NCBI RefSeq assembly: GCF_009707485.1
Contig: NZ_CP046121.1
Location: forward strand, 1,984,001 to 2,048,000
From: Nostocoides sp. HKS02
GTDB taxonomy: Bacteria > Actinomycetota > Actinomycetes > Actinomycetales > Dermatophilaceae
Direction of reading: 5' to 3'
Length of the DNA stretch: 64,000 nt
Part shown: one piece after another, positions 25,213 through 63,852 of the stretch
Layout of the letters: each line of letters opens with the position of its first letter
How positions within the stretch are numbered: the first letter of the stretch is position 1
The notes under the pieces: model-generated
What the model was told of the DNA's origin: nothing
Database searches by the model: none
Seen by the model: the letters and a program-made list of their open reading frames with translations, nothing else
Position numbers and translations under genes: made by a program

Positions 25213-28200
25213 CTACTTGGTGGACGAAGGTGACGGTGTGGCGGTGGACGACGGGGTGGCAGCCCCGGACGGGCTCGGCGTCGGCGTCACGCTGACGCTG
25301 CCGCCCTTGGGGGCCGCCGCGACCGCCCGCCGGATGGCGTCGTCGAGCTGCTTCTGCGCCGCCCCGTAGGCCGCAAAGTCGCCGTTGCGCAGGGCGGTCT
25401 GCCCGGCGGCATACGCGGCCTGGATGTCGGCGAGCGCCTTGGTGAGGGCCGCGGCGGCGCTCGGCGACGTGGGGCCGGTGCCCCCGCCGGTGCCGGTGGT
25501 CGGCGGCGGCGCGCCCGACCCGGAGTCACCCGTGGTCGCACCGGAGTTTCCGCCGAAGAGGCCAGAGAGGGCGCCGTCGAGCGTGTCCGACCAGGCGAGC
25601 TTGTCACCGAACGCCGCGATGGTCGCGCGCGAGAGCGGGTAGGCCGACGACCCCTGGGCGCTGACGTAGATGGGTTGCACGTAGAGCAGTCCCCCGCCGA
25701 CGGGCAGGGTGAGCAGGTTGCCCAGCGTGACCTTGGAGCCCTGCTGGCGGCTCTGGTTCAGGAACTGGTTGAGGGTCAACGTGAACGCCGCGGACGTCTG
25801 GTTGGACGAGGCGACGTCGTTCTCGACCTGACCGGGCCCCTTGACCGTGGTGTCGCGCGGGAGCACGAGCAGCCGGAGCTTGCCGTAGTCGTCGAGCCGG
25901 GCGCCGGCCTGGGTGCCCGCGTTCGAGTCCACCGCCAGGAACCCCGAGAGCACCTCGCGGTCGCCGGCCGGCATGAACGTGGAGGTCAGCGAGAAGGTCG
26001 GCTTCTCCTGGTCCGGCATCGCCAGCGTGAGGTAGTACGGCGGCTGCATGACGACGCGGTCCTCCTGGGCCGGGTCGTTCGGCACCCGCCAGAAGTCCTG
26101 CCCGCCGTAGAACGAGTCGGCGTCGGTGACGTGGTAGCGGGCCAGCATCGTGCGCTGGACCTTGAACAGGTCCTCCGGGTACCGCAGGTGGGACATGAGG
26201 TCGGCACTGATGTCGCTCATCGGGAGCACCGTGTTGGAGAACGCCTTGCTCCAGGCCTTGAGCAGCGGGTCCTGGTTGTCCCAAGAATAGAGCTTGACCG
26301 ACCCGTCGAACGCGTCCACGGTCGCCTTGACCGAGTTGCGGATGTAGTTGACCTGGCCGCTGCCGATCGGGCGCACGGCCGAGGAGTTGGCGGTGACCGA
26401 GTCGGAGGTGGCGTTGTCGATGGCCTGGAGGCGGGAGTACGGGTAGTCCGCCGAGGTGGTGTACCCGTCGATGATCCACTGGATCCGGCCGCCGACGACC
26501 GCCGGGTAGGGGTTGCCGTCGAGGGTCAGCCACGGCGCGACCCGCTGCACCCGGTCGAGCGGCGTGCGGTGGTCGAGCAGCCGGCTGTCGCTGTTCACGG
26601 TGTCGGACAGGATCAGGTTGAGCTCGTGGTACTTCATCGCGTACGCGACCTTGCGGGCGAACGAGCTGAGCTGGACACCACCCGTGCCGGTGTAGGTGTT
26701 GTTCTTCTGCCCCGCCACGCTGCTGTCCGGGTAGTCGAACTCGCGGGGCCGGCTGCCGGGCGCGCCGCCGACGATGGAGTACTCGGGCGACTGCTCGCCG
26801 AAGTACACCCGCGGCTCGAACTGGGGCAGCGGACCGATGGTGGGGATGTTCTGCTCGTAGAACACCGGCTGGCCGTCGGCCCCACGCTGGTTGCCGTAGG
26901 CCGCGACGACGCCGAAGCCGTGGGTGTAGACCGTGTGGTCGTTGAGCCAGTTGCGCTGGTTGGCGGGCACACCGTTGAGGTCGAGCTCGCGGACCGCGAT
27001 GACGGTGTCGTTGACCTTGCCGTTGATCGTGTAGCGGTCGACGTCGAGGGCGTCGGGGAACGCGTAGTACGACTTGATCGACTGCAGCTGCTTGAAGGTC
27101 GGGCTGACGACGATCGGGTCGACGAGCCGGATGCCCGGGATCGTCTCGGCGTCGTTGCGCAGCTGGCCGGCAGTGGCCTTGGTCGTCGCCTGGTACGTGC
27201 TGGTGTCCACCCCGTCGATGCCGTATGCCGCGCGCGTCGCCTTGATGCTTCGGTCGATGTAGGGGCGCTCCAGCGTCTTCTGCGAGGGCTGGACCTTGAA
27301 GTTCTGCACCAGGGCCGGGTAGATGGTGCCGACGACGACCGACGTGATGACCAGCAGCGCCACCCCGACGGCGGGCAGGCGCCACGAACGCGTCCAGATC
27401 GAGGCGACGAACAACCCCGCCGTCATGATCGCGGCCACCGCCAGGATCGCCTTGGTCGGCATCACCGCGTGGGCGTCGGTGTAGCCGATGCCGGTCAGCA
27501 GGGGCGAGTCCTTGGTGGCCAGGGAGTAGCGGTCGAACCAGTAGTTTGCCGCGCGCACCAGCACGAGCACGGCGAGCAGCACCGCGAGATGGGTGCGGGC
27601 CGCCCTGGTGGTGCGCTCGGCCCGGACCTGCAGCTGGAGCCCGCCGTAGACGTAGTGCGTGAACGCTGCGGCGACCAACGCCATGACCAACACCATGGTG
27701 AGGAAGCCGAGCAGGAACCGGATCCACGGCAGCGTGAAGACGAAGAACGACAGGTCGAGGTGGAACTGTGGGTCCTTGATGCCGAACGGCACCTGGTTGC
27801 GCCAGAGCAGGTAGGTCTTCCACTCCCCGGCTGCCCCGGTGGCCGTCAGCAGCCCGAGCAGGCCGGGGACGATGATGATCGCGAGCTTGCGCAGCGGCTC
27901 GATCGCCTCGCGGTACTGGTCGAGGCTCTGCTGCTGCGGGGTGACGGGGGCATAGATCGGGCGCGTGCGGTAGGCGACGACCAGGCTCGAGCCCACCAGA
28001 CCCGCCGTGAGCAGGAACCCGACCGTGAAGAGCACGATCTTGGTGGTCAGCTCGGTGACGAAGACGCCCTCGTACCCCACGGAGTCGAACCAGAGGACCT
28101 CCGTCCAGACCGAGGCCGCCAGCGAGACGACGAAGCCGAGCACCACGAGGATGACGATCGTGGGGGCCAACGGACCCCGTCCCGCGCGCAGGCGCAGGTT

Positions 28201-28293
28201 CGGCGGCCGACGACCGCCGCCAGCCGGACGCGCGTCCTCCGGTCGCTCGCCATCGCCGGGCCCACCAGAGCCGAACCAATCAGAGGAACTCAC
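25213..28293 (-). CDS. UPF0182 family membrane protein
   Basis: 1,026 residues from GTG 28293. A Pro/Gly/Arg-rich cytoplasmic start is followed by about seven membrane segments in the first third (for example APTIVILVVLGFVVSLAAS, IVLFTVGFLLTAGLVGSSLV, HLAVLLAVLVLVRAANYW). A large extracytoplasmic domain comes next and the tail is Thr/Pro/Ser-rich. This is the UPF0182 layout; its function is unknown. The upstream start is uncertain, since the frame continues to 28380 and no strong ribosome binding site is visible. Mycobacteria carry a homologue in the same neighbourhood. Confidence 0.88.
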   Translation of the reverse strand: MSSSDWFGSGGPGDGERPEDARPAGGGRRPPNLRLRAGRGPLAPTIVILVVLGFVVSLAASVWTEVLWFDSVGYEGVFVTELTTKIVLFTVGFLLTAGLVGSSLVVAYRTRPIYAPVTPQQQSLDQYREAIEPLRKLAIIIVPGLLGLLTATGAAGEWKTYLLWRNQVPFGIKDPQFHLDLSFFVFTLPWIRFLLGFLTMVLVMALVAAAFTHYVYGGLQLQVRAERTTRAARTHLAVLLAVLVLVRAANYWFDRYSLATKDSPLLTGIGYTDAHAVMPTKAILAVAAIMTAGLFVASIWTRSWRLPAVGVALLVITSVVVGTIYPALVQNFKVQPSQKTLERPYIDRSIKATRAAYGIDGVDTSTYQATTKATAGQLRNDAETIPGIRLVDPIVVSPTFKQLQSIKSYYAFPDALDVDRYTINGKVNDTVIAVRELDLNGVPANQRNWLNDHTVYTHGFGVVAAYGNQRGADGQPVFYEQNIPTIGPLPQFEPRVYFGEQSPEYSIVGGAPGSRPREFDYPDSSVAGQKNNTYTGTGGVQLSSFARKVAYAMKYHELNLILSDTVNSDSRLLDHRTPLDRVQRVAPWLTLDGNPYPAVVGGRIQWIIDGYTTSADYPYSRLQAIDNATSDSVTANSSAVRPIGSGQVNYIRNSVKATVDAFDGSVKLYSWDNQDPLLKAWSKAFSNTVLPMSDISADLMSHLRYPEDLFKVQRTMLARYHVTDADSFYGGQDFWRVPNDPAQEDRVVMQPPYYLTLAMPDQEKPTFSLTSTFMPAGDREVLSGFLAVDSNAGTQAGARLDDYGKLRLLVLPRDTTVKGPGQVENDVASSNQTSAAFTLTLNQFLNQSRQQGSKVTLGNLLTLPVGGGLLYVQPIYVSAQGSSAYPLSRATIAAFGDKLAWSDTLDGALSGLFGGNSGATTGDSGSGAPPPTTGTGGGTGPTSPSAAAALTKALADIQAAYAAGQTALRNGDFAAYGAAQKQLDDAIRRAVAAAPKGGSVSVTPTPSPSGAATPSSTATPSPSSTK

Positions 28294-28946: not shown

Positions 28947-28966
28947 CCGCGCCCCGCGGCATACCG

Positions 28967-30073: not shown

Positions 30074-30537
30074 GGGAGTCCGACCCACTCGTCGGAGCCG
30101 TCCGTGAACTGCTGGTGCTTCCAGATCGGCACCCGCGACTTCAGCGTGTCGATGAGGTCGCGACACGCCTCGAACGCCTCGCCCCGGTGGGGGGCCGACA
30201 CCGCCGCGACGACGGCCAGGTCGCCGATCTCGAGGTGGCCCACCCGGTGGACCGCGCCCAGGCGGGCGACTGGGTGCCGGGAGGCGACCTCGCGGCATAC
30301 CTCTGCGAGCGTGTCGACGACGCTCGGGTGTGCGGAGTAGTCGAGCGCAGACACGGCCTCGCCGTGGTCGTGGTCGCGGACGACACCCACGAACAGCGCG
30401 ATCCCCCCGCACCGCGGGTGGCGCACGAGCCCGAGCACCTCGTCGACACTGAGTGGCTCGGACCGGACGTCGCTGAGGACGACCTCGGGTCCGTCGCCCA
30501 GGTCTGAGGACCCGACCGGGTTCGCTGGCTGGCTCAC
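30070..30537 (-). CDS. moaE: Molybdopterin synthase catalytic subunit MoaE
   Basis: 155 residues. MoaE hallmarks are present: CGGIALFVGVVRDHDHGEAV, LDYSAHPSV, HRVGHLEIGDLAVVAAVSAP, and the C-terminal KSRVPIWKHQQF with the active-site Lys residues. MoaE, with MoaD, adds two sulfurs to precursor Z in molybdenum cofactor synthesis. It starts at GTG 30537, overlapping the SDR stop, and its stop overlaps the protease start, so the three genes form one operon. The moeZ gene at 51.5-52.7 kb could supply the MoaD sulfur carrier. Confidence 0.93.
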   Translation of the reverse strand: MSQPANPVGSSDLGDGPEVVLSDVRSEPLSVDEVLGLVRHPRCGGIALFVGVVRDHDHGEAVSALDYSAHPSVVDTLAEVCREVASRHPVARLGAVHRVGHLEIGDLAVVAAVSAPHRGEAFEACRDLIDTLKSRVPIWKHQQFTDGSDEWVGLP

Positions 30538-31655
30538 AGGGTGCCGCCCTTCCTGCGGCGTCGCCGCATGATGGCCGCCGTACCCACGAGGGCGACAGCG
30601 GCGCTGGCCGCCCCGAGTGCGGCGTCCTTGCGGTCGAGGCGACGTGCCGCGACCGCGTGGGAACCCCGGATGGTGTCCAGGAGGACCCCGAGGCAGGTCT
30701 CATTGTCGTAGGCAGGCGCCCACCCCTGCTCGCGCAGGGTCCGGGAGGACACCACCCAGGGGAAGGCGACGAAGGCGAGATCGCTGGCCGGAGCCGGCAG
30801 CACTCCAACGCGGTGGAGACGGTCGGCGGTTCCCAACGCGGCCCCCATGCTCAGCTCCACCCGACGCATCCCCGTCAGCCGCTCGAGGTCGCTCTGGCCG
30901 AGGTGACCCTCGGAGCCGACCGTGACAACCGGCCCCAGCCCTCTGGCCAGCACCACCACGACCGAGGAACCGAGGTCGTCGACATGGCAGAACTGCCAGG
31001 CCGACGCGGCGCCGCGCACGGTGAGCAGGCGCGGAGCCTCGAAGTGGCGGGTCGTGACCGTGTCGACGCCCTCGCCCACGAGCGCCGCGGGACGTACCGC
31101 CGTGATGGCCAGGCCCGGGTGGACGTCGCGCGCCACCGCGATCAGCTGCTCGACATCCATGAGGTCGCCGACCTGGCCCTCGTCGGAGGGCGCCTGGAGG
31201 GGTGCGTCTTCGTCGAGCGGCACCGGGTTGCCCGGCTGCGCGCCGTAGACCTGGGCTCCGGTGACCACCACGAGGTGGCGGACCCCGGCTGCCGCCGCGG
31301 CCGTGATGACGGTCTGCGCGCGGCGCAGGTTGCGCTCGCGGCGCACGCGAGCGCCGAGGACGAGGTCGGCCGCCAGGTCCGTGCTGGCGGCGACGTATGC
31401 CGCGCTGTGCACGCCGCGCAGCGCGTCCACGAGGTGGGGGTCGCCCGGGTCGGCGAGCCGGAACTCGACTCCTCCGACCGGGGGTCGGTCCACGTCGACC
31501 GCGACGACCCTGCCGATTTCGCCGTGCGCCGCCGCGGTCACGAGCGCGCGCAGCACCGCCCGGCTCGCGGGGTCCCCCGCGCCCACCACGGCGACGTCGA
31601 CAGCAGTACGCCGCGAGCGAACGGCGCGCCGCTGGGGGCTCGCAGGGGAACTCAC
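30534..31655 (-). CDS. NAD-dependent epimerase/dehydratase-like (SDR) protein
   Basis: 373 residues from GTG 31655. The N-terminal Rossmann strand VDVAVVGAGDPASRAVLRAL keeps part of the glycine-rich NAD(P) motif. VTGAQVYGAQPGNPVPLDED resembles the extended-SDR substrate region, with the Tyr present but the YxxxK pair altered (DVEQL follows). A short hydrophobic stretch and Arg-rich end (AAIMRRRRRKGG) close the protein. It is probably a degenerate sugar-epimerase-like protein of unknown substrate, first in the operon with moaE and the PDZ protease. Confidence 0.78.
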   Translation of the reverse strand: MSSPASPQRRAVRSRRTAVDVAVVGAGDPASRAVLRALVTAAAHGEIGRVVAVDVDRPPVGGVEFRLADPGDPHLVDALRGVHSAAYVAASTDLAADLVLGARVRRERNLRRAQTVITAAAAAGVRHLVVVTGAQVYGAQPGNPVPLDEDAPLQAPSDEGQVGDLMDVEQLIAVARDVHPGLAITAVRPAALVGEGVDTVTTRHFEAPRLLTVRGAASAWQFCHVDDLGSSVVVVLARGLGPVVTVGSEGHLGQSDLERLTGMRRVELSMGAALGTADRLHRVGVLPAPASDLAFVAFPWVVSSRTLREQGWAPAYDNETCLGVLLDTIRGSHAVAARRLDRKDAALGAASAAVALVGTAAIMRRRRRKGGTL

Positions 31656-33126: not shown

Positions 33127-33716
33127 GCGACGCACCAGCCAGCCTGCGCACTGACGTGCCGGCGGCATACCTCGCCCTGCGCGAGGACGCGAGGCGCGTC
33201 CTCGACCGGTGGCGCGCCCCCAGCGCCGCGCAGGACCGGCTGCGCCGCGAGCTGCTGGCCCACTGCGACGAGCACCCCGGCGCGCTGTGGAAGCAGGGCC
33301 CACCCGCTCACCTGACGGCCAGCACCCTGGTGTTCAACCGCGGGCTCGACAAGGTGCTGCTCACCCTGCACGCCAAGGCGGAGCTCTGGTTGCAGTTCGG
33401 TGGCCATTTCGAGCCCGGCGACCCGACCGTGCTCGCCGCCGCCACCCGCGAGGCCCGCGAGGAGTCCGGCCTGCCGGAGCTCGTGCTTCACCCGGAGCTC
33501 ATCCACCTCGACCGACACCGGCTGCTCGCCGCGGGCTTCGGGAGGTGCGCGGAGCACCTGGACCTGCGGTACGCCGCCGTGGCCGCTGACGAGGACGCGT
33601 ATGCCGTGAGCGCAGAGTCGCTCGACGTGGCCTGGTGGCCCGTAGATGCCCTGCCGGCCGAGAGTCGTGCCGAGATCGGCCCCCTGGCCGACGCGGCGCG
33701 ACGGGTGCTCGCCTGA
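33123..33716 (+). CDS. NUDIX hydrolase
   Basis: 197 residues from GTG 33123, overlapping the previous stop as GTGA. The NUDIX box is GGHFEPGDPTVLAAATREAREESGL at about residues 98-122, with REAREESG intact and the first acidic position slightly shifted. The substrate is probably a nucleoside diphosphate derivative, but the family is broad. It converges with the metallopeptidase gene a few bases away. Confidence 0.88.
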   Translation: MSDAPASLRTDVPAAYLALREDARRVLDRWRAPSAAQDRLRRELLAHCDEHPGALWKQGPPAHLTASTLVFNRGLDKVLLTLHAKAELWLQFGGHFEPGDPTVLAAATREAREESGLPELVLHPELIHLDRHRLLAAGFGRCAEHLDLRYAAVAADEDAYAVSAESLDVAWWPVDALPAESRAEIGPLADAARRVLA

Positions 33717-34879: not shown

Positions 34880-35842
34880 GTGACGATACGCCCGCTGCTC
34901 AAGTGCCTCTGGCCCGTCCTGCGCCGCGGATCCGGCGAGGTCCAGCTCGGCATCGACCCCACGCACGCCGTGGTCCTGTGCGGGCTGAATGAGGCCCAGA
35001 TCGTGGCGCTGGAGTCCCTCGACGGCACGCGCGAGCTCCCTGCCGTGCTCGCCGAGAGCCCCGGCCTGGTCTCCTCGTTGCAGCGCCGCGGCCTGCTCGC
35101 CGACACCGCCGACACCGGCGACCTGCCGGTCGGGCTCCGGGCGGCCCTGGCTCCCGAGGCGGACGCACTCGTGCGCACGGCCGGTCCCCGACAGGGGTAT
35201 GACGCGTTGGCACGGCGACGCGACTCACTCGTCCTCGTCTGCGGTCGGGGCGCGCTGCCGATGGCCGCCGCGACCCTGCTGCGTCGCGCGGGCGTGGGGC
35301 AGGTCCGGGTCGGACCTGAAACCGCTGACGAGCAGCCCGGTCAGCACAGCGAGCCCGCTGAACCCGCGCTCGTCGTCCTCACCGCAGCCCAGGCGATCGG
35401 ACCGGGGGCGGCCGAGTCGTGGCGCCGCCGCGGCATACCCGTCCTGCCGGTGGTGATGCACCTCGTGGAGGCGGTCGTGGGGCCGCTCGTCGCTGCGGGC
35501 ACTCCGTGCCTGCGCTGCCTGGACCTCACCCGAGCAGACCTCGACACCGCGTGGCCCCTGCTCGCGGGCCAGCTCACCCGGCCCGCCGTCGGACGGGGCC
35601 CGGAGGTGGGCGGCGAGACCTCGCTGGTCGCGGTGACCGCGGCGCTGGCCACCATGGTGGCGCTCGCCGCCCTCGACGGGCAGCCGGTGCCCAGCGGTCG
35701 CTCACTCGAGGTGGCGCTGCCGTGGCCCGGAGTCCGGCAGCGTCAGTGGGTGGTCCATCCGCGCTGTTCGTGCGCCGCGGACGACGTGTCGGACCGCCCT
35801 GCCGACGCGGACGATCCCGGGCAGGCGAGAATGGCTGGGTGA
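34880..35842 (+). CDS. E1/ThiF-like protein of the cyclodehydratase-associated type
   Basis: 320 residues from GTG 34880. The N-terminal LLKCLWPVLRRGSGEVQLGI and a short winged-helix-like region recall the leader-binding part of bacteriocin (TOMM) cyclodehydratase E1-like proteins. The later VVGPLVAAGTPCLRCLDLTRAD is the conserved pre-cysteine segment of the same family. An ATP-binding motif is not visible, so it is probably non-adenylating. No peptide precursor, YcaO or dehydrogenase is nearby. The next gene (ABC1 kinase) starts inside its stop codon. Confidence 0.65.
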   Translation: MTIRPLLKCLWPVLRRGSGEVQLGIDPTHAVVLCGLNEAQIVALESLDGTRELPAVLAESPGLVSSLQRRGLLADTADTGDLPVGLRAALAPEADALVRTAGPRQGYDALARRRDSLVLVCGRGALPMAAATLLRRAGVGQVRVGPETADEQPGQHSEPAEPALVVLTAAQAIGPGAAESWRRRGIPVLPVVMHLVEAVVGPLVAAGTPCLRCLDLTRADLDTAWPLLAGQLTRPAVGRGPEVGGETSLVAVTAALATMVALAALDGQPVPSGRSLEVALPWPGVRQRQWVVHPRCSCAADDVSDRPADADDPGQARMAG

Positions 35843-37381: not shown

Positions 37382-37993
37382 TCAGGCCTTGGCTCCCGAA
37401 GCTGAGCTCGTTGCCGCCGCGGCCTTGGCCTTCGCCTGGGCCTTGGCCGCCTGCTTGAACTCGCGCACCTTCGCGAGGGACTCGGCGTCGACGACGTCCG
37501 CCACCGAACGGTAGGAGCCGTCCTCGGCATACGGGCCGATCGCCTCCTGCCACCCCGCGGGTCGCACGCCGAGGCGCTTGCCCACCAGCGCAGCGAAGAT
37601 GCGCGCCTTCTGGTCACCGAAGCCGGGCAGGTCGCGCAGCCGCGCGAGCAGGTCGGCACTGTCGGTGGCGCCGGTCCACACCCGCTCGGCGTGGCCGTCG
37701 TACTGGTCGCGCACCACGGCCGCGAGCTGCTGCACGCGGCCGGCCATCGAGCGGCCGTAGCGGTGGATCGCCGGCGGGGTGGAGCACAGGTCGGCGAACG
37801 CCTCGGGCTCGGCCGCCGCGATCGCGTCAGGGGCCAGCGTGCCGAAGCGATCGAGGATCTTCCACGGGCCCCGGAAGGCGTGCTCCATCGGGTACTGCTG
37901 GTCGAGCAGCATGCCGACGAGCAGCGCGAACGGGTCGTTGCTCAGCACCTCGTCGGCGGCGTCGTCCTGAGCGATGCGGATCCGGGTCGACAT
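37382..37993 (-). CDS. HhH-GPD base-excision DNA repair protein
   Basis: 203 residues. It has a helix-hairpin-helix glycosylase pattern: LLVGMLLDQQYPMEHAFRGP early, and RLRDLPGFGDQKARIFAAL as the hairpin. There the usual catalytic Lys of K-containing glycosylases is not in the standard place, so it may be monofunctional. An Ala/Lys-rich tail (AAKAQAKAKAAAATSS) ends it. Start ATG 37993 is preferred over 38044, because an 18-base tandem repeat lies between the two. Confidence 0.85.
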   Translation of the reverse strand: MSTRIRIAQDDAADEVLSNDPFALLVGMLLDQQYPMEHAFRGPWKILDRFGTLAPDAIAAAEPEAFADLCSTPPAIHRYGRSMAGRVQQLAAVVRDQYDGHAERVWTGATDSADLLARLRDLPGFGDQKARIFAALVGKRLGVRPAGWQEAIGPYAEDGSYRSVADVVDAESLAKVREFKQAAKAQAKAKAAAATSSASGAKA

Positions 37994-43232: not shown

Positions 43233-43273
43233 GCCTCCACCCTAGGCGTGGCTGTTCGGCATACGGTGGCGGT

Positions 43274-50900: not shown

Positions 50901-51095
50901 CTCGACCCGGGCGACGACCAGCTCGATGGCCGTGGTCGTCTTGCCCGTGCCCGGGCCCCCGAGGACCCGCAGGACGCCGCCGCGGTGGGCGAGCGCGGCC
51001 TGCTGGACCTCGTCGAGCGGCGGCACGTCGGCCACCACGCTCGGGGCACGGCGGAGGATCAGCACGGGGCCGATTCCATCACCACGGACCGACAT
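47916..51095 (-). CDS. adnA: AdnA-type helicase-nuclease subunit
   Basis: 1,059 residues from ATG 51095. Walker A is VLGGPGTGKTTTAIEL and motif II reads VIDDAQELTAAG (DDAQ rather than DExQ), as typical of the AdnA partner. The C-terminal nuclease domain has LRVVDYKTGSG and cysteines in KCGLKW and CSTCPVRSCCPAW for an iron-sulfur cluster. AdnA contributes a second nuclease. The pair replaces RecBCD/AddAB in actinobacteria. It lies in a region dense in the 8-mer CGGCATAC. Confidence 0.9.
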   Translation of the reverse strand: MSVRGDGIGPVLILRRAPSVVADVPPLDEVQQAALAHRGGVLRVLGGPGTGKTTTAIELVVARVESGAARPDQCLVLTSSRTAAGSLRERVTARLGRTSTEPLARTHQAFGFGILRQAAALRGDPTPRLLSGPEQDVILRELLAGHAELGTGPVWPERVRLALGTRGFRGELRDLLMRAVEHDLEPDDLRRLGAQYGRPEWEAAADVLAEYDQVTALSAPGAYDPAWILGAAADLLDEEPEALARLHDSLRLIVIDDAQELTAAGVRLLRRVVAPGIDMVLLGDPDAAVQTFRGADPRFLADGWHTLGDGPTLVLPTAYRLPAAVVEATARLTPKIAALGGGAQRQAQPGRPGGTVEVMLLRAVSQEASTIAARLRAAHLRDGMPWSDMAVIVRGQGRTATLRRVLMAAGVPVAGNATDLPVRDEVAVRPLLALLRMTLELAQGERELLDPQVAVDALTSPLGGCDAVTLRRLRRALRREELDAGGGRTSDELLAEALVRPATLLELGPEAGPARRVAAILAAGLRAAAVGEGGPSGRWAPGVTAESVLWQMWSATGLAKEWQGIALAGGHGASRADRDLDAVVGLFDAAAKFADRLPQAGPEEFLTHIESQDIPGDTLVARSPVGESVTVLTPQAAAGREWRLVAVAGVQEGVWPDLRLRGSLLGSEALVNRVSGRPTNFRGAQAAVRYDETRSFLVALTRAREHVMVTAVRSDDEQPSVYLDVLDPEPTNVADDGSRGFDTVPETLTLPAVVAQQRRLLLSPSAKVRRESVRALVRLADAGVDGADPDRWWVMRTLTDDRPLREGDAVVRVSPSRVDNFQKCGLKWLLTSVGGDGPSIGAADVGTLVHQIAHDLGDAPAPDLAAEVDRRWGRLGMRDGWISDRKRAEARDMTRRLAAYFDLARDRGWVKLGAEVDLRVVLGRAEIKGSIDRLERLPDGRLRVVDYKTGSGRVTKADLPTHPQLGVYQLGVDAGALAEFGTESGGAALLQLGAAANQGVTLNEQPPLTEAEHPSWAAELVARTAEGMAGATFTATVNDLCSTCPVRSCCPAWPEGRVL

Positions 51096-51153
51096 CGGCA
51101 CGGCCGACCTGCCGGGCAGGCGACGCCGGCGCCACCGATGGCTGCCGCGCGCA

Positions 51154-51501
51154 TCAGCTCCCCGGCCGCGCCGCGCCGGACCAGCGGGCGCGCGCGAGGT
51201 CGACCCGGCGGCCGTCGACCTGCCCGCGGACCAGCGGCGTACCCTCCTCGCGGTAGTGCGCCAACGCCTCGTCCTCGAGTCCCTGCGGGAAGTGGCCCCC
51301 CGCCCGGAGGACCCGCCACCACGGCACGTCGGAGCCGTACCGCGCCATGACCGTGCCGACCCCGCGGGGGCCGCCACGCCCGAGGAGCTCGGCGATGTCG
51401 CCGTACGTCATGACCATCCCCTCGGGGATCTGGTCGACGACCTCCAGCACGTCGTCGGCGAAGTCGCTCGGCAGCCCGAAGTCCCGCCCGTCGCTCACCA
51501 T
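51154..51501 (-). CDS. Alkyltransferase-like (ATL) MGMT-family protein
   Basis: 115 residues with the MGMT DNA-binding fold (VVDQIPEGMVMTYGDIAELLGR, GGPRGVGTVMARY). The active-site PCHRV is replaced by VPWWRVLR, so it cannot accept alkyl groups. ATL proteins bind O6-alkylguanine and flag it for nucleotide excision repair. It lies between adnA and moeZ in the same direction. Confidence 0.9.
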   Translation of the reverse strand: MVSDGRDFGLPSDFADDVLEVVDQIPEGMVMTYGDIAELLGRGGPRGVGTVMARYGSDVPWWRVLRAGGHFPQGLEDEALAHYREEGTPLVRGQVDGRRVDLARARWSGAARPGS

Positions 51502-51507
51502 GGGCCC

Positions 51508-52731
51508 TCAGTAGGTCGGGAGGCTGGGGTCGACGTCGCGCACCCACGCCAGCACGCCGCCGGCGAGGTTGGAGACGTCCTGGCGCCCGGTCGCGGCCAG
51601 CAGTCCCGCGGCCTCGGCCGACCGAACCCCGGACTTGCAGTGCAGGACGACAGGTATGCCGCGCGGCAGCGCGGCTGCGGCTGCCCCCGACCGGAACTCC
51701 TCGAGGTGGATGGCGCGCGCCCCCGGAATCGAGACGACCTCGCGCTCCCCCGGCTCGCGTACGTCGACCAGCTCGAACTCGGCCTCTCCCCGGTCGCGGG
51801 CCGCCAGCATCGACGCGAGTTCGACCGCCGTCACCTCGGCGAAGCCGGTGCCGCCGGTGACGTCGACGCCACCGGCGGTGGCGGACGCAGCGTCGGAGGC
51901 ACCCGGCATACCGCAGAACTCGTCGTAGTCGACCAAGGTCGTGACCGTCGGCGACTCACCGCACACCCGGCAGGCCGGGTCGGCCCGCACGGTCAGCGAG
52001 TCCCACGTCTGTCGCAGCGAGTCGTGCACGAGCAGGCGCCCGACCAGCGGGTCACCCTGGCCGGTGATGAGCTTGATGGCCTCGGCCACCTGCACCGAGC
52101 CGATGGCGGCGCAGAGCACCCCGAGGACGCCGCCGGTGGCGCAGGAGGGGACGGCGTCGGGCGGCGGTGGGTCCGGGAACACGCAGCGGTAGCAGGGCCC
52201 CACCCCCGCGAACCACACCGACACCTGCCCGTCGAACCGGTAGATCGACCCCCAGACGTGCGGCAGCCCGAGCAGGACGCACGCGTCGTTGACGAGGTAG
52301 CGGGTGGCGAAGTTGTCGGCGCCGTCGAGGACCACGTCGTAGTCGGCGAGGATCTCCAGCGCGTTGGCCGACGTGAGTCGCACGTCGTGGCGCACGACGG
52401 TCACGAGCGGGTTGATGCCGGCCACCGTCTCGGCCGCGGACTCGGTCTTGAGCCGCCCCACGTCGGCCACCCCGTGCACCACCTGGCGCTGCAGGTTGGA
52501 CGCGTCCACCACGTCGTCGTCGACGACGCCGATCGTGCCCACCCCGGCAGCGGCGAGGTACAGCAGGGCCGGTGAGCCCAACCCGCCAGCGCCGACCACC
52601 AGCACCCGCGCGTTGACCAGCCGACGCTGGCCCTCGAGACCGATCTGGGGCAGCAGGATGTGGCGGGCGTAGCGCGCCTTCTGCGGCGCCGTGAGCGCAG
52701 GCCCGGGGGCGACAAGCGGCGGGATGGCCAT
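51508..52731 (-). CDS. moeZ: Adenylyltransferase/sulfurtransferase MoeZ
   Basis: 407 residues from ATG 52731. The ThiF/MoeB domain has VLVVGAGGLGSPALLYLAAA, a DGADNFATRYLVND catalytic region and zinc Cys pairs (CYRC, CRVC). The C-terminal rhodanese domain has the active Cys in HCKSGVRSAE. It activates small sulfur carriers and passes sulfur to MoaD, CysO and ThiS. ATG 52731 is preferred over the GTG at 52749, because the latter lies in an operator-like palindrome. It diverges from the TetR gene. Confidence 0.93.
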   Translation of the reverse strand: MAIPPLVAPGPALTAPQKARYARHILLPQIGLEGQRRLVNARVLVVGAGGLGSPALLYLAAAGVGTIGVVDDDVVDASNLQRQVVHGVADVGRLKTESAAETVAGINPLVTVVRHDVRLTSANALEILADYDVVLDGADNFATRYLVNDACVLLGLPHVWGSIYRFDGQVSVWFAGVGPCYRCVFPDPPPPDAVPSCATGGVLGVLCAAIGSVQVAEAIKLITGQGDPLVGRLLVHDSLRQTWDSLTVRADPACRVCGESPTVTTLVDYDEFCGMPGASDAASATAGGVDVTGGTGFAEVTAVELASMLAARDRGEAEFELVDVREPGEREVVSIPGARAIHLEEFRSGAAAAALPRGIPVVLHCKSGVRSAEAAGLLAATGRQDVSNLAGGVLAWVRDVDPSLPTY

Positions 52732-53480: not shown

Positions 53481-53544
53481 CCTTCAGCGAGACACCCGCG
53501 CGCGCCCGTATGCCGCGCGGCCACCCGAACAGAGAGGTACCACC

Positions 53545-55193: not shown

Positions 55194-56732
55194 ATGACTG
55201 ACTCCACCGCGACTTCTGACGCGACAACGCCCCCCGCCCCCAGCTTCGCCGACTTCGACGTCCACCCCGACATCGTCGGTTCACTGGCTGACGCCGGCAT
55301 CATCACCCCGTTTCCGATCCAGGCGATGACCCTGCCGGTCGCGTTGGCCGGTCACGACATCATCGGGCAGGCCAAGACCGGCACCGGCAAGACCCTCGGC
55401 TTCGGCGTCCCGATGCTCAACCGCACCGTGGCGCGTGGCGACGCCGCCTGGGAGACCTTCCCGTATGCCGGCAAGCCCCAGGCGCTCGCGGTCGCCCCGA
55501 CCCGAGAGCTCGCCGTCCAGGTCTCCAGCGACCTCGAGCGGGCTGGCAAGCGGCGCGGGATCCGCGTCCTCACCGTCTACGGTGGCCGCGCCTACGAGCC
55601 GCAGATCGATGCGCTCAAGAACGGCGTCGAGGTCGTCGTCGGCACGCCGGGTCGGCTCATCGACCTGGCCAAGCAGGGCCACCTCGACCTCTCCCACGTG
55701 AAGTCGGTCGTGCTCGACGAGGCCGACGAGATGCTCGACCTGGGGTTCCTCCCGGACGTCGAGAAGCTGCTGGCCCTGACCTCCGCTTCCCGCCAGACCA
55801 TGCTGTTCTCGGCGACCATGCCGGGCGCGGTCGTCGCGCTCGCCCGTCGCTACATGAAGCAGCCCACGCACATCCGCGCGATGGGCGACGACCAGGAGAA
55901 CGCGCATACCGTCAAGGCCGTCGAGCAGTTCGTCTACCGCGCCCACGCGATGGACAAGGTCGAGATGCTGGCTCGCATGCTGCAGGCCGAGGGCCGTGGC
56001 CTGACCATCATCTTCAGCCGCACCAAGCGCACCGCCGCCAAGGTCGCCGACGACCTGATCGACCGCGGGTTCGCCGCCGCCCCGATCCACGGAGACCTGG
56101 GCCAGGGTGCCCGCGAGCAGGCGCTCCGAGCCTTCCGCAACGGCAAGGTCGACATCCTCGTCGCCACCGATGTCGCGGCTCGTGGCATCGACGTTGACAA
56201 CGTCACCCACGTCATCAACTACCAGTGCCCCGAGGACGAGAAGACCTACCTCCACCGCATCGGGCGCACGGCGCGGGCGGGCAACACCGGCATCGCGGTG
56301 ACCTTCGTCGACTGGGACGACCTGCCGCGCTGGGGCCTGATCAACAAGACCCTGGACCTCGGCATCCCCGAGCCGGAGGAGACCTACTCCTCCTCCGACC
56401 ACCTCTACGAGCAGCTCGACATCCCGCGCACGGCCAAGGGTCGGCTCCCCAAGTCGGCACAGACCCGTGCGGGCCTCGACGCCGAGGTGGTCGAGGACCT
56501 GGGCGAGACCGGCAAGTCGGGCGGACGTCGCCCTGCTGGCGCCGGTCGCCCTGCTGGTGGTGGTCGCGACTCCCGCGGTGACCGTGGTGGGCGCGAGGGT
56601 CGCGAGGGCGGCAACCGCAGCCCCGAGCGGCGCAGCGACAGCGCCACCGCGCAGGCCGGCGAGGGCAGCACCGGTCCGCGTCGCAACCGCAACCGGCGGC
56701 GCACCCGCGGCGGCGAGACCAGCCAAGCCTGA
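55194..56732 (+). CDS. rhlE: DEAD-box RNA helicase (RhlE-like)
   Basis: 512 residues. The Q motif FPIQAMTLPVALAG, AKTGTGKT (Walker A), PTRELA, DEADEMLD, SAT, IIFSRT and HRIGRTARAG are all present. The C-terminus is a disordered Arg/Gly-rich tail (RRPAGAGRPAGGGRDSRGDR) that binds RNA. It is the counterpart of rhlE in the mycobacterial block. A 190-base leader precedes it without an obvious riboswitch; such leaders can mediate cold control. Confidence 0.93.
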   Translation: MTDSTATSDATTPPAPSFADFDVHPDIVGSLADAGIITPFPIQAMTLPVALAGHDIIGQAKTGTGKTLGFGVPMLNRTVARGDAAWETFPYAGKPQALAVAPTRELAVQVSSDLERAGKRRGIRVLTVYGGRAYEPQIDALKNGVEVVVGTPGRLIDLAKQGHLDLSHVKSVVLDEADEMLDLGFLPDVEKLLALTSASRQTMLFSATMPGAVVALARRYMKQPTHIRAMGDDQENAHTVKAVEQFVYRAHAMDKVEMLARMLQAEGRGLTIIFSRTKRTAAKVADDLIDRGFAAAPIHGDLGQGAREQALRAFRNGKVDILVATDVAARGIDVDNVTHVINYQCPEDEKTYLHRIGRTARAGNTGIAVTFVDWDDLPRWGLINKTLDLGIPEPEETYSSSDHLYEQLDIPRTAKGRLPKSAQTRAGLDAEVVEDLGETGKSGGRRPAGAGRPAGGGRDSRGDRGGREGREGGNRSPERRSDSATAQAGEGSTGPRRNRNRRRTRGGETSQA

Positions 56733-56743: not shown

Positions 56744-57301
56744 TCAGGTCGGCAGGGGTCGGTTCACCCGCAGGAGGTAGTGCAGCGGGTCGTCGACCGG
56801 GTTGTCTGGCGTCAGGTCGCCCTGAGCCACGCGCCGAAACCCGGCCTTCTCCACCGCGCGCCACGACGCGAGGTTGGCCGCGACCACGGACACGAGGATC
56901 GCCGGAGTGTCCGGCAGGTCCTGCCAGGTGCGCTCGACCATTGCCGAGATCATCGCCGAGCCGAGCCCCTGCCCCAGCCTGGTCGGATCGCCGACGAGGT
57001 AGTCCAGCGTCGCGGCGCCCTCGGGCACCTCGGTGAGCGACGAGAAGTCGGCGAGGTTCTCGGCATACGCCGCCACCCGCGAGCGCTGCACCAGTCCGAA
57101 CGGTTCACCGTCGAGCATCGCCAGCCAGTCCTCGCCCGGTTCCACACCGTCGACCGTGGGCCCGAAGTCCCGCTCGAGCGCCTCCGCAGTCCACTCGTGG
57201 TGCCACCACCGGGCGACCGGTGGCGACGCCAGCCACGCCGCGAGCAGCGGGAAGTCGGCACGCGTCAGCCGGCGGAAGGTCACCCGTGACGACGCGACCA
57301 C
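56744..57301 (-). CDS. GNAT-family N-acetyltransferase
   Basis: 185 residues. The acetyl-CoA loop is recognisable in PTRLGQGLGSAMISAMVERT and the C-terminal NLASWRAVEKAGFRRVAQGD. The opening FRRLTRADFPLLAAWLASPP with VARWW resembles AAC(6')-like aminoglycoside acetyltransferases. The substrate cannot be told from sequence. It converges with rhlE. Confidence 0.88.
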   Translation of the reverse strand: MVASSRVTFRRLTRADFPLLAAWLASPPVARWWHHEWTAEALERDFGPTVDGVEPGEDWLAMLDGEPFGLVQRSRVAAYAENLADFSSLTEVPEGAATLDYLVGDPTRLGQGLGSAMISAMVERTWQDLPDTPAILVSVVAANLASWRAVEKAGFRRVAQGDLTPDNPVDDPLHYLLRVNRPLPT

Positions 57302-57310: not shown

Positions 57311-58357
57311 TCAGGCGTCGATGGTGGCGGTGTCGATCACGAAGCGGTAGCGGACGTCCGACTTGACCACGCGGTCGTAGGCCTCGTTGACCTGGTCGGC
57401 CGAGATGGTCTCGATCTCGGCGGCGATGCCGTGCTCGGCGCAGAAGTCGAGCATCTCCTGGGTCAGGGCGATCCCGCCGATGTTGGACCCGGCGACGACC
57501 TTGTCACCGCCCACGACGGCGCTGAACGGCAGCAGCTGCGGGTTGCCGGGCAGCCCCACCGTGACGAAGGCGCCGAACGGCTTCACCAGCGAGAGGTATG
57601 CCGCGAGGTCGAGGTCGGCGCTCACCGTGGACAACACGAGGTCGAACTTGCCCTGGAGGTCCTCGAAGGTGCTCGCGTCGCTTGTGGCGCGGTAGTCCCG
57701 GGCACCGAACCGCCGGCCGTCCTCCTGCTTGGACAACCCCTGGCTGAGCACGGTCACGTCGGCGCCCAGTGCGGCGGCGATCTTGACCGCCATGTGCCCC
57801 AGGCCGCCCATGCCGACCACGGCGACCTGCGCACCGGGCTGGGCACCCCAACGCCGCAGCGGCGTGTAGACCGTGATGCCCGCGCACAGCAGCGGAGCCG
57901 CCACGTCGAGGGCGAGGCCGTCGGGGATCCGCACGGCGAACCGCTCCGTGACGACGATGCTCTGGCTGTACCCACCGAGGGTCGTCTCGCCGTGGAGGTC
58001 GACATCGCCGTAGGTCCAGACCGTCTTGGCCTCGCAGAAGTTCTCGTGACCGTCGACGCACTGGGCGCAGGTGCCGCACGAGTCCACCATGCAGCCGACG
58101 CCCACGCGGTCGCCGACCTGGAACTTCGTCACCTTCGCCCCCACCGCGCTGACGACTCCGGCGATCTCGTGCCCGGGCACCATGGGGAAGGTCGCCTCGC
58201 CCCACTCCTCGCGCACCATGTGGATGTCGCTATGGCAGATCCCGGCGAAGGCGATGTCGATGGCGATGTCGTCCGGTCGCAGGTCGCGACGCTGGATCAC
58301 GGTCGGGGCGAGCGCGGCGCCGGCGGACGGCGCTGACAGGGCTGCGGTGCTGGGCAT
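57311..58357 (-). CDS. Zinc-dependent NAD(P) alcohol dehydrogenase
   Basis: 348 residues. Catalytic zinc region FAGICHSDIHMVREEWG with GHEIAGVV; structural zinc Cys cluster DSCGTCAQCVDGHENFC; Rossmann motif VAVVGMGGLGHMAVKIAAAL. It resembles the YahK/cinnamyl alcohol dehydrogenase class that reduces aldehydes, usually with NADPH. GAAAGG precedes the ATG. Confidence 0.92.
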   Translation of the reverse strand: MPSTAALSAPSAGAALAPTVIQRRDLRPDDIAIDIAFAGICHSDIHMVREEWGEATFPMVPGHEIAGVVSAVGAKVTKFQVGDRVGVGCMVDSCGTCAQCVDGHENFCEAKTVWTYGDVDLHGETTLGGYSQSIVVTERFAVRIPDGLALDVAAPLLCAGITVYTPLRRWGAQPGAQVAVVGMGGLGHMAVKIAAALGADVTVLSQGLSKQEDGRRFGARDYRATSDASTFEDLQGKFDLVLSTVSADLDLAAYLSLVKPFGAFVTVGLPGNPQLLPFSAVVGGDKVVAGSNIGGIALTQEMLDFCAEHGIAAEIETISADQVNEAYDRVVKSDVRYRFVIDTATIDA

Positions 58358-59229: not shown

Positions 59230-60132
59230 TCAGTCTCTCAGGTCGCCTCGTGGGACCGCGACCGGTGCCTCCAAGGCAGCCCAGCCGGACTTCTCCGGGC
59301 CGGCAGCCTGACCGGCCGGGCAGTGCGCCCGGAAGTCGCACCACTGGCAGAGCGGACCGACCGAGGCGGGGAAACGGCCGGAGTCGGTGCCGAACTCGGC
59401 GTAGTCCTGCTCGGCGCGGCGGGCGTCGCGGGCGATCGACTCGGCCTCGTCGATCTTGCGCTTCAGGGAGTCGCCGGTGTGCTCGTGGACCGCGACGGAG
59501 CCGCTCGGGAGGTGGTGCAGCTCGACCCGCACGCAGCGGCGCCGGAACATCTTCCACGCGGCCGCGGCATACAGCGCCAGCGGCAGGGACGTGCGGGCAT
59601 CGTCGTCGGTCGGCGCCACCCGGCTCGTCTTGTAGTCGACGACGGCCAGACCGTCGGGCCGATCATCGAGGCGGTCGACGCGGCCTTGGAGGGCGAGCAC
59701 CGAGGTCTTGAGCGAGACCGTGCGCTCGATGCCCAGCGGCTGCTCACCGGGGTCGACGTCGTGCAGGTATGCCGTGACCTGGTCCTGGGCGCGTGTGCGC
59801 CACTCGAGCGACTGGGCGACGTCGCGGAACCCGGTCTCGATCCACGAGGTGCGGACGAGCTCGGCGCCGGCCTGCGGCGTGCGCTCGCCCGGCGCGAGGT
59901 CCCACCAGTCGCGCAGGGCGTTGTGGACGGCCACCCCGACCGACGTGTGGGCTCGTTGTGACCGGGCAGCGGGAGCGGGCCGGTCGAGGTACTGCATGCG
60001 GTAGCGGCGGGGGCAGTCGACCCAGGCGAGCAGCCGGCTGGGGCTCGCCCGGAACAGCCGCCGCGGCATACCGGCGAGCTCGGTCTGCACGAAGGCCTCG
60101 CGCGTGCTCTCGCGGGTGGTCGGGCTGCTCAC
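59230..60132 (-). CDS. RecB-like PD-(D/E)XK nuclease
   Basis: 300 residues. CPRRYRMQYL at the start, LAVVDYKTSRV (nuclease core Asp and Lys) in the middle and CQWCDFRAHC at the end form the iron-sulfur RecB/Cas4-like nuclease pattern. It stands alone with no helicase. A DNA repair role is likely. It follows ParA upstream on the same strand. Confidence 0.88.
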   Translation of the reverse strand: MSSPTTRESTREAFVQTELAGMPRRLFRASPSRLLAWVDCPRRYRMQYLDRPAPAARSQRAHTSVGVAVHNALRDWWDLAPGERTPQAGAELVRTSWIETGFRDVAQSLEWRTRAQDQVTAYLHDVDPGEQPLGIERTVSLKTSVLALQGRVDRLDDRPDGLAVVDYKTSRVAPTDDDARTSLPLALYAAAAWKMFRRRCVRVELHHLPSGSVAVHEHTGDSLKRKIDEAESIARDARRAEQDYAEFGTDSGRFPASVGPLCQWCDFRAHCPAGQAAGPEKSGWAALEAPVAVPRGDLRD

Positions 60133-60759: not shown

Positions 60760-61604
60760 GGGCGCACCACCTCGGTCCCGCTGCTCGCCTGGGACTCGAT
60801 CTGCGCCAGCACCGCAGCCGTCGTCGTGTTCTCGCCCAACCGGTTCTCCTTGCCTGTGCCGTGGTAGTCGCTCGAGCCGGTGACGAACAGCCCGAGTCTC
60901 GATGCGAGCGCCTCGGCGTGCGCACGCTCGGCCGGCCGGTGGTCGCGGTGGTACGCCTCGAGGCCCGCCAGCCCCGCCTCGGCCATGTCCTCGATGACGG
61001 CGTCCTCGACGGTCCAGCCACGCGCGTTCGCGAACGGGTGGGCCATGACGGGCACCCCGCCGGCCTGGCGCACGAGCTCGACGGCGTGGATCGGGTCGGG
61101 CGCGTAGTGCGGGACGTAGTACCGACTGCCGCCCCGCAGGATGTCGCGGAAGGCCTCGTCACGGTTGCCCACGTACCCGTTGGCGACGAGGACATCGGCG
61201 ATGTGCGGTCGCCCCAGCGTCGCTCCCTCGCCTGCCAGCGACCGCACCTGGTCCACCGAGACGGGTATGCCGTCGTCGGCCATCCGCTCGACCATGCGCT
61301 CGATGCGCGTCTCGCGCGAGTCCCGCGCGTGCTCGAGCTCGGCGAGCAAGGCGGGTGCGTGCGGGTCGACGAGGTAGCCGAGCAGGTGGACGCTGACCCC
61401 GCGGTGCGAGCACGAGATCTCCACCCCGCGGACCAGGTCGACGCCGACCTCGTGAGCGGCGGCGACGGCCGCCGGCCACCCGGCATACGTGTCGTGGTCG
61501 GTCAGCGCCACGACGTCCAACCGGGCCCGCGCCGCCGCGGCGACCACGTCGGCCGGGGGCTCGGTGCCGTCGCTCGCGGTGGAGTGCGTGTGCAGGTCGA
61601 TCAT
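60756..61604 (-). CDS. PHP-domain metal-dependent phosphoesterase
   Basis: 282 residues. MIDLHTHSTASDGTEPPADV, ALTDHDTYAGW and GVEISCSHRGVSVHLLGYLV give the His/Asp metal ligands of PHP, and VTGSSDYHGTGK near the end supplies the last ones. It resembles YciV/RNase AM types acting on nucleotides or short RNA 3'-phosphates. Upstream of MarC in one operon. Confidence 0.92.
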   Translation of the reverse strand: MIDLHTHSTASDGTEPPADVVAAAARARLDVVALTDHDTYAGWPAAVAAAHEVGVDLVRGVEISCSHRGVSVHLLGYLVDPHAPALLAELEHARDSRETRIERMVERMADDGIPVSVDQVRSLAGEGATLGRPHIADVLVANGYVGNRDEAFRDILRGGSRYYVPHYAPDPIHAVELVRQAGGVPVMAHPFANARGWTVEDAVIEDMAEAGLAGLEAYHRDHRPAERAHAEALASRLGLFVTGSSDYHGTGKENRLGENTTTAAVLAQIESQASSGTEVVRP

Positions 61605-62306: not shown

Positions 62307-62328
62307 AGCTCACCACTAGGGTCGCCTC

Positions 62329-63852
62329 ATGGCCGATTTCGTCGGGGCGGTTGACCAGGGGACGACGAGCACCCGCTTCATGGTGTTCGACCACGACGGC
62401 GCCGAGGTGGGCCGCCACCAGCTCGAGCACGAGCAGCTCCTCCCGCAGGCGGGCTGGGTCGAGCACGACCCGCTGGAGATCTGGGAGCGCACCCAGACCG
62501 TGATCGGCTCGACGCTCGCCCGGCTCAACCTCCAGGCGAGCGACCTGGCCGCACTCGGCATCACCAACCAGCGCGAGACCACCGTGGTGTGGAACCGCCG
62601 CACCGGCCGTCCGGTCCACAACGCCATCGTCTGGCAGGACACCCGCACCGACCGGATCGCGCGCGCCCTCGACCAGTCGGGCCGCGGTGACGTGATCCGC
62701 GAGCGCGCCGGCATACCGCCAGCTGCGTACTTCTCGGCGGGCAAGGTCCAGTGGATCCTCGAGCAGGTCGACGGAGCCCGCGCCGCCGCCGAGGCGGGCG
62801 AGCTGGCGTTCGGCACCATCGACAGCTGGCTGCTCTGGAACCTCACGGGCGGCACCGACGGCGGCGTCCACGTCACCGACGTGACCAACGCCAGCCGCAC
62901 CATGCTCATGGACCTGAGGACGCTGGACTGGGACGACGAGCTGTTGGGGTTCTTCGACATCCCGCGCGGCATGCTCCCCCAGATCCGGCCGAGCTCGGAC
63001 CCGAGCTTGTACGGCCTCACCCGGTCAGGGGGCCCGCTCGGTGGCGAGGTGGCGCTCGCAGGCGATCTCGGCGACCAGCAGGCCGCCACCGTCGGCCAGG
63101 TGTGCTTCAGTCCCGGCGAGGGCAAGAACACCTACGGCACCGGCAACTTCATGATCCTCAACACCGGCGAGGAGATCGTCCGCAGCGAGTCAGGCCTGCT
63201 CACGACCGTCTGCTACCAGCTCGGCACCGCAGCCCCGGTCTACGCGCTCGAGGGGTCCATCGCCGTCACAGGTTCTGCCGTCCAGTGGCTGCGCGACCAG
63301 CTGGGCATCATCTCCGGCGCTGCCGACATCGAACGACTCGCGAGCCAGGTGCAGGACACCGGCGGGCTCTACTTCGTCCCGGCGTTCTCGGGGCTGTTCG
63401 CGCCGTACTGGCGGCCCGACGCCCGAGGCGCCATCGTCGGCATGAGCAGGTTCAACACCAACGCCCACCTGGCGCGCGCGACGCTCGAGGCCATCTGCTA
63501 CCAGACCCGAGACGTCTCCGACGCCATGACCAAGGACTCGGGTGTCGAGCTCGAGGTCCTCAAGGTCGACGGCGGGGTCACCGCGAACAGCCTGTGCATG
63601 CAGCTGCAGTCCGACATCCTCGGGGTGCCGGTGTCCCGGCCGGTGGTCGCCGAGACGACGGCGCTCGGTGCCGCCTACGCTGCAGGTCTGGCCACGGGCT
63701 TCTGGTCCGACACCAGCGAGCTCCGGGCGAACTGGCAGGAGTCGCGTCGGTGGTCCCCCACCTGGACCGCCGCGCAGCGCCGCGACGGGTATGCCGGGTG
63801 GCGCAAGGCCGTGGAACGCACCCTGGACTGGGTGGACGTCGACGAGGGATAG
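62329..63852 (+). CDS. glpK: Glycerol kinase
   Basis: 507 residues. FGGY kinase motifs: [20 protein letters not shown] at the start (phosphate-1), [30 protein letters not shown], and YGTGNFMIL plus [20 protein letters not shown] at the C-terminus. It phosphorylates glycerol to glycerol 3-phosphate. The next gene, glpD, starts 6 bases after its stop. No regulator is visible in the window. Confidence 0.97.

Follow-up and report, generated by a model that had tools for sequence, protein, structure and literature searches.

An octamer abundant in Nostocoides sp. HKS02 and many of its relatives as a possible directionally read tag of self DNA

KOPS and other polar segregation sites are short, asymmetric and frequent, and AdnAB is widespread in Actinobacteria; to our knowledge, dialect-forming uptake sequences have been described in two Gram-negative families, and neither an uptake sequence outside Gram-negatives nor a Chi site of AdnAB is known. 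In the parts of the published accounts drawn on here and below, the DNA uptake sequences (DUS) of Neisseriaceae and the uptake signal sequences (USS) of Pasteurellaceae occur about once per kb without orientation bias, are regularly spaced, include close inverted pairs and have a strong consensus (PMC1626085), dialects of DUS are described in Neisseriaceae (PMC3630211), and cyanobacteria have the HIP1 word, for which a link to orphan methyltransferases is described (PMC4390886). Here we analysed the octamer CGGCATAC in a 64-kb stretch of Nostocoides sp. HKS02 (contig NZ_CP046121.1, positions 1,984,001 to 2,048,000; the window), in the genome to which the window belongs (G000; 3,482,451 bp, one contig) and in 149 genomes of the family. 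By analogy with DUS and USS, there is about an even chance that CGGCATAC is a self-DNA tag of the uptake-sequence kind, read with polarity.

The likeness to DUS and USS lies in a density of about 1 copy per kb, equal orientations, regular spacing and an exact consensus, and further in some inverted hairpin pairs, scarcity in an island of the window and single-base dialects. The differences are that 1) the host belongs to another phylum with another type of cell envelope, 2) 144 of the 149 family genomes are without the type IVa pilus marker, 3) CGGCATAC has 8 bp and its flanks are almost without information, and 4) its spacing is kept only between copies of the same orientation, a property that we did not meet in the parts of the DUS and USS literature drawn on.

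Abundance and exactness of the octamer

The window contained 35 copies of CGGCATAC, against a mean of 1.03 and a maximum of 5 in dinucleotide shuffles. Thirty-three of these (18 plus, 15 minus) were located in the core at 25407-63796, in agreement with a sequence-only reading of the window that had claimed at least 33 copies where one or two were expected. Similarly, GGCATAC was present 38 times in the window, and all 33 occurrences in the core had C directly before, as that reading had stated. Among the 8-mers of the core, CGGCATAC, which differs from its own reverse complement, ranked first for over-representation against a second-order Markov model (33 vs. 0.67). The motif was also suspected to be genome-wide, and it proved to extend further than that, being family-wide: G000 had 2,537 copies, 1,264 forward and 1,273 reverse, or 0.73 per kb, which resembles uptake sequences in density and in the lack of orientation bias, while the reversed-word control had 159 copies (65 + 94).

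Context and exactness were examined in a sample of 24 stretches of G000 including the window (864 kb, a quarter of the genome, 635 copies of CGGCATAC) or in this sample minus the island (the core sample, 838.85 kb), with genes called by a simple purpose-made gene finder that missed some genes, AdnA among them. In called genes, CGGCATAC occupied roughly one in four of the 652 Ala-Tyr pairs (GCA TAC, 153 copies) and one in three of the 693 Tyr-Ala pairs (TAT GCC on the coding strand, 244 copies). Most in-gene copies fell on these two pairs, as would be explained if the word were a by-product of mutation bias or of the usage of codons or dipeptides. However, called genes of the core sample contained 507 copies, compared with 36 +/- 7 in 20 synonymous-codon shuffles; a lack of excess over a codon-aware model had been named beforehand by the sequence-only reading as grounds for giving up the motif. 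Copies were also found outside called genes, and near misses were at background overall. The by-product explanation, to which we leave virtually no probability, is refuted. The density of 0.88 per kb outside against 0.73 per kb inside called genes is not a safe difference, because of the genes missed.

Exact copies numbered 633, against 30 expected from a third-order Markov model, whereas the 24 single-base variants summed to 648 against approximately 586, showing no overall enrichment (the near-miss sums were made by hand, and the exact copies themselves inflate the Markov expectations). A high proportion of perfect copies in comparison with single mismatches is likewise a trait of uptake sequences. 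The highest near-miss ratios were 2.6 for CGGCATAG (28 copies) and 2.2 for both CGGCATCC (196) and CGGCAAAC (16). The base before GGCATAC was C in 633 cases, A in 5, G in 7 and T in 7, and the flanks carried at most 0.29 bit, with the maximum at -2. Both edges of the word were exact in 52 of 52 copies of G008, a genome of the same genus, and the first base was looser in G132 (53 C vs. 22 G, 5 A and 4 T).

The motif-poor island, with which the window begins, contained 2 copies in 25 kb, where the sequence-only reading had seen one, and three GGCATAC without C before. In 5-kb bins, the density was 0.23 per kb at less than 66% GC (guanine plus cytosine) and 0.81-0.85 per kb at 70-74% GC, the low-GC bins being defined by GC alone and not by mobile-element content. 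With this limit for the bins, both results bear out the expected lower density in mobile DNA and resemble the scarcity of uptake sequences in recently acquired DNA. The island also carried a Type III restriction-modification pair on the minus strand (10608-15741; Res 10608-13691, Mod 13696-15741), a large SNF2/Helicase_C protein (16237-19497, minus) matching the PADLOC candidate C3a139 (HKD+Snf2), HTH_17 domains in open reading frames (ORFs) 20627-21193 and 21949-24348, and a DUF3987 domain at 2081-3190; these predicted genes suggest that it is a mobile island with defence functions at tRNA-Met. Another region of G000 (2900001-2920000), with 3 copies in 20 kb and 65.8% GC, is perhaps a second island.

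An exact octamer present inside and outside called genes and scarce in the island would also suit a protein-binding or methylation mark, kept by selection for chromosome organisation or for HIP1-like self-labelling against a nuclease. HIP1 is likewise a hyperabundant octamer of a clade, but it is palindromic and methyltransferase-linked, whereas CGGCATAC is asymmetric and spaced strand by strand. A non-palindromic word argues against such a mark, the Type III system of the island cannot explain a word that is family-wide, and strand-wise exclusion (see below) is unexpected for a symmetric site. We therefore consider a mark of this kind unlikely.

Orientation and strand-wise spacing

Orientations were about equal throughout the 24 stretches (worst imbalance in 20 kb, 8 vs. 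3), and the forward-minus-reverse z of CGGCATAC had a standard deviation of 0.81 across the 149 family genomes. The origin and terminus of G000 could not be placed by GC skew; even with these unplaced, orientations about equal all along the genome differ from those of KOPS and speak against an architectural site of KOPS-like polarity. Accordingly, among the classes proposed from the sequence alone, a polar chromosome-organising site is disfavoured, whereas an uptake sequence and a Chi-like site both remain, the former being favoured; no observation pointed to a methylation target.

Orientation flipped between neighbouring copies in 27 of 32 cases in the core of the window. In the sampled genome it did so in 432 of 609 cases, compared with a mean of 312 and a maximum of 357 in label shuffles at fixed positions. 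Same-orientation pairs in the core sample numbered 24, 31 and 63 at distances of 0-400, 400-800 and 800-1200 bp, respectively (95.6 expected each), whereas opposite-orientation pairs numbered 118, 90 and 101 (95.5 expected each). Under 800 bp, there were thus 55 same-orientation pairs against 191 expected, a value as low being reached in 0 of 2,000 label shuffles, and 208 opposite-orientation pairs against 191; in the first sample, +- and -+ pairs were both close to expectation. No depletion of pairs was seen for 25 control 8-mers of like abundance (lowest observed/expected, 1.00), which is a further point against a by-product of codon usage. In 5-kb bins at 69% GC or more, the variance/mean of the counts was 0.46, more even than random, and this regular spacing, together with some close inverted pairs, is again found in uptake sequences. 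Copies were not biased towards the 5' or the 3' part of genes, which led us to reject gene position as a source of the spacing.

Each strand of G000 is spaced independently of the other strand. From this we infer that the process rewarding CGGCATAC reads the word directionally and that another copy within approximately 1 kb brings little further benefit. Strand-wise spacing would result if ComEC threads one strand, and equally if the reader is a motor, for example AdnAB.

The second of these brings in a Chi-like site, at which AdnAB, as the likeliest helicase-nuclease, would arrive from a DNA end, read one orientation and switch from degradation to recombination. An enzyme travelling one way would need a different set of sites from one travelling the other way, so that the strands would be independently spaced, and strand-wise exclusion is predicted if a one-way reader responds to the first site it meets. 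Like CGGCATAC, Chi of RecBCD and AddAB is a short, asymmetric, genome-wide over-represented word, as would suit a directional reader. However, Chi in 350 kb of Escherichia coli showed a strand bias (59 plus, 28 minus) and an excess of same-strand pairs under 1 kb (26 vs. 12), whereas CGGCATAC has no strand bias and its same-strand copies avoid each other. We hold a Chi-like site to be possible but doubtful, also in view of the evidence on dialects and enzymes given below.

Spacing was also determined in eight relatives from 5 genera including that of the window (537 sites). Together they had 78 same-orientation pairs under 800 bp compared with 125 in shuffles, 0 of 2,000 of which were as low. 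Exclusion was clear in G027 (4 vs. 23.6), G008 (3 vs. 10.8) and, under 400 bp, G134 (1 vs. 8.5), and moderate in G077 (21 vs. 41.8) and G132 (4 vs. 9.6); G074 had too few sites for the test. In two genomes using the dialect CGGCGTAC (see below), exclusion was not significant (56 vs. 64; 156 of 2,000 shuffles as low), and no cross-exclusion between CGGCATAC and CGGCGTAC was seen in G000, while G007 had too few sites for this comparison.

At the shortest distances, -+ pairs within 40 bp were in excess (13 vs. about 5 expected) and +- pairs were not (5 vs. about 5), both by hand count. As counted and judged by eye, nine of the 13 close -+ pairs were outside called genes, and no more than 60 bp separated 7 of these 9 from the 3' end of such a gene; the stem of seven extended past the word in a terminator-like manner. 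In the portions of the sources used, DUS and USS also form such inverted hairpin pairs (PMC3630211, PMC7811141).

Distribution in the family and one-base dialects

Genomes were called motif-rich at a density of at least 0.1 copy per kb and a threefold excess over the reversed control; by this measure, 79 of the 149 family genomes were rich in CGGCATAC, 15 were intermediate and 55 were poor. All 11 genomes of the window's genus carried the word (625 to 3,986 copies; control, 43 to 159). Outside the family, none of 454 genomes reached 0.1 per kb, the threshold for being rich; these were 273 of the same order (highest 177, control 135) and another 181 of the class (highest 386, control 176). Within this sample, CGGCATAC is confined to one actinobacterial family, in which it occurs in many genera. 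The sequence-only reading had not noticed this restriction to the family, the hairpin pairs, the one-base dialects or the independent spacing of the two strands. Among the literature matches listed, no paper related to CGGCATAC itself and no title fitting uptake sequences in Actinobacteria was found.

By hand count, CGGCGTAC, one base off CGGCATAC, reached at least 5 times the control and at least 0.2 per kb in 11 of the 149 genomes. The CGGCATAC-poor genomes with this word were G049 (3,903 copies), G085 (2,111), G109 (4,185), G057 (2,618), G089 (2,366), G114 (2,529), G033 (2,216), G078 (1,463) and G034 (1,359); the other two sampled genomes of the genus of G078 use CGGCATAC. Both words were carried by G007 (625 and 865) and G009 (836 and 1,011), which belong to the window's genus, and in genus g2 CGGCGTAC was 4.5 to 5.7 times the control at low density. 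As judged from these counts, CGGCATAC and CGGCGTAC are one-base dialects of one tag. More than one dialect within one family is a difference from Chi, and one-base shifts, even within genera, would be hard for an enzyme with all its sites in use, which argues against a Chi-like site.

The words of other poor genomes were sought in samples of 20-60 kb against codon shuffles, and in some CGGCATAC-poor genomes no outstanding word was found in such samples. CGAAGGGG was over-represented in Janibacter loci (30 vs. 5.1) and in G131 (20 vs. 3.9), and is perhaps the Janibacter counterpart of the tag. In G066, CCGCATCG was present 40 times vs. 9.5, and in G036, CGGCATCC 47 times vs. 9.2; in three Janibacter loci, CGGCATCC had 8, 13 and 6 copies and was outside the six leading words, of which CGAAGGGG leads. 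In G132, GGCATACC (47 vs. 3.3) was as enriched as CGGCATAC (40 vs. 3.2), and the word may therefore be shifted or longer in genus g47. Judged by AdnA, Janibacter is the closest named genus (54-55% identity), and its three loci were without CGGCATAC; an actinomycete metagenome-assembled genome (L109) with 56% AdnA identity had 9 copies in 16 kb. The family sampled here is probably the one to which Janibacter belongs (Dermatophilaceae/Intrasporangiaceae).

Pieces from other families of the order comprised seven readable ones, one of 4.6 kb, and the Rhodococcus loci were mutually homologous. No comparable word was found in these seven short pieces or in the Rhodococcus loci, which is a point of low power against a Chi-like site; one other-family piece had 7 copies of GTCCTCGA against 0.51 (z 9.1), the tag in four core pieces having z of 9.7-13.9.

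Candidate readers and the possible nature of the word as a tag

Competence machinery accompanies the word in G000, as it does uptake sequences in their hosts: an ORF for ComEA (SLBB and HHH domains), a comEC that occupies two frames, together with a Tad locus comprising T2SSE, two T2SSF and a TadZ-like ATPase. In this Tad locus, a 670-aa ORF (L192:5738-7750) combines a T2SSF (TadB-like) domain with one of the von Willebrand A type. ComEC matches were present in 145 of the 149 family genomes, for which reason the presence of ComEC was rejected as a discriminator of motif-carrying genera, and T2SSF matches in 146; the three genomes without T2SSF (two of g7 and one of g15) were all motif-poor. 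Genera averaging fewer than 3 T2SSF hits made up 0 of 31 motif-rich and 5 of 18 motif-poor ones (Fisher p 0.0045, kinship uncorrected), and hits differed at the genus level (Mann-Whitney p 0.032); this test covered 132 of 149 genomes and 49 of 53 genera, 17 low-completeness genomes being left out and G038 (81%) kept. Split ComEC-family matches were also seen elsewhere, e.g., in G097, G098 and G148, as real breaks or assembly indels. According to the part of the source used, Micrococcus luteus needs two tad clusters for transformation, which ComEA/EC serve too, and many actinobacteria have tad and comEA/EC together (PMC4322843).

For a Chi-like site, AdnAB-like ORFs in the window (Table 1) would provide the resident helicase-nuclease expected with Chi, matches to PDDEXK_1, the AdnAB nuclease family, were present in 149 of 149 family genomes (some may not be AdnAB), and RecC had no match in G000 or in eight other genomes of its genus searched. 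RecBCD-Chi was rejected, G000 being without a RecC match; matches were present in 59 of the 149 family genomes, more commonly in motif-poor genera (Fisher p 0.065, computed before the CGGCGTAC dialect was known). On the other side, no residue of AdnA or AdnB tracked the motif beyond label shuffles: in 24 sequences, a test of low power whose motif-poor group included the CGGCGTAC carriers G078 and G034, AdnA gave one column, equalled by 93 of 300 label shuffles, and AdnB none.

Table 1. Copies of CGGCATAC and other features in the window
Feature	Position	Strand	Remark
CGGCATAC copy	25407..25414	+	core
CGGCATAC copy	27223..27230	-	core
CGGCATAC copy	28957..28964	+	core
CGGCATAC copy	30293..30300	+	core
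CGGCATAC copy	31395..31402	-	core
CGGCATAC copy	33163..33170	+	core
CGGCATAC copy	33599..33606	-	core
CGGCATAC copy	35431..35438	+	core
CGGCATAC copy	37525..37532	+	core
CGGCATAC copy	39413..39420	-	core
CGGCATAC copy	40892..40899	+	core
CGGCATAC copy	41372..41379	-	core
CGGCATAC copy	41667..41674	+	core
CGGCATAC copy	42972..42979	-	core
CGGCATAC copy	43257..43264	+	core
CGGCATAC copy	44665..44672	-	core
CGGCATAC copy	45249..45256	+	core
CGGCATAC copy	47332..47339	-	core
CGGCATAC copy	47553..47560	+	core
CGGCATAC copy	49941..49948	+	core
CGGCATAC copy	51654..51661	-	core
CGGCATAC copy	51904..51911	+	core
CGGCATAC copy	53508..53515	-	core
CGGCATAC copy	55463..55470	-	core
CGGCATAC copy	57061..57068	+	core
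CGGCATAC copy	57596..57603	-	core
CGGCATAC copy	59565..59572	+	core
CGGCATAC copy	59767..59774	-	core
CGGCATAC copy	60064..60071	+	core
CGGCATAC copy	61265..61272	-	core
CGGCATAC copy	61481..61488	+	core
CGGCATAC copy	62709..62716	+	core
CGGCATAC copy	63789..63796	-	core
CGGCATAC copy	4093..4100	+	within motif-poor island
CGGCATAC copy	17832..17839	+	within motif-poor island
Motif-poor island	1..25150		adjoins tRNA-Met (25070-25144, minus); left end beyond the window
AdnA-like ORF (UvrD-like helicase + PDDEXK nuclease)	47916..51377	-	candidate reader of a Chi-like site
AdnB-like ORF (UvrD-like helicase + PDDEXK nuclease)	44521..48051	-	candidate reader of a Chi-like site

If CGGCATAC is an uptake-type tag, a putative receptor acting with Tad/Flp pili and ComEA/ComEC would prefer word-bearing DNA in transformation, so that word-bearing alleles would be taken up and recombined more often and the word would accumulate about once per recombination tract. 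Off-consensus copies would not be kept, and dialects would switch as the receptor drifts. The word would be read directionally, e.g., on the strand threaded in; a second copy of the same orientation within approximately 1 kb would add little, and a copy on the opposite strand would count fully. This reading is favoured because density, dialects, exactness, hairpin pairs and equal orientation match those of uptake sequences, and it is preferred to a motor because of dialect turnover and patchy presence, whereas polarity favours the motor instead.

Several observations weigh against an uptake-type tag. In Haemophilus influenzae, uptake is independent of site orientation, as stated in the part of the source used (PMC1939737); a plain uptake model therefore predicts orientation-blind exclusion, contrary to our data. 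Strand-wise exclusion was weak or absent in G069 (26 vs. 33.4), G010 (9 vs. 9.2), G049 and G109. The comEC of G000 lies in two overlapping frames (1516197-1518598), by an assembly indel or a real break, and G039, G042, G043 and G093, all in at least 330 contigs, are motif-rich or intermediate without a ComEC match. Almost all family genomes have ComEC and Tad, which therefore cannot explain which genera carry the word. PilM, the type IVa pilus marker, was present in 5 of the 149 family genomes and not in G000, and a receptor resembling ComP of Neisseria is therefore not expected; no search was aimed at receptors among Tad or ComE proteins. Type IVa pili were rejected as a link to the motif, with which PilM had no association.

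Taking the uptake-type tag and the Chi-like site together, it is probable that an actinobacterial family tags its own DNA with a dialect-forming, directionally read octamer, either a Tad/ComE-read uptake sequence or a Chi site of AdnAB. A dialect-forming word across many actinobacterial genera would be an independent case of self-DNA recognition, for which some 50 genera are available to compare gain, loss and switching of the word. Under either the uptake or the Chi reading, spacing kept strand by strand adds a new measurable feature to words of this type; it makes the way in which a word is read accessible to measurement, and it can be checked in known DUS, USS and Chi genomes. Absence of CGGCATAC would serve as a marker of foreign islands, and the word would tell which DNA these actinobacteria can exchange.

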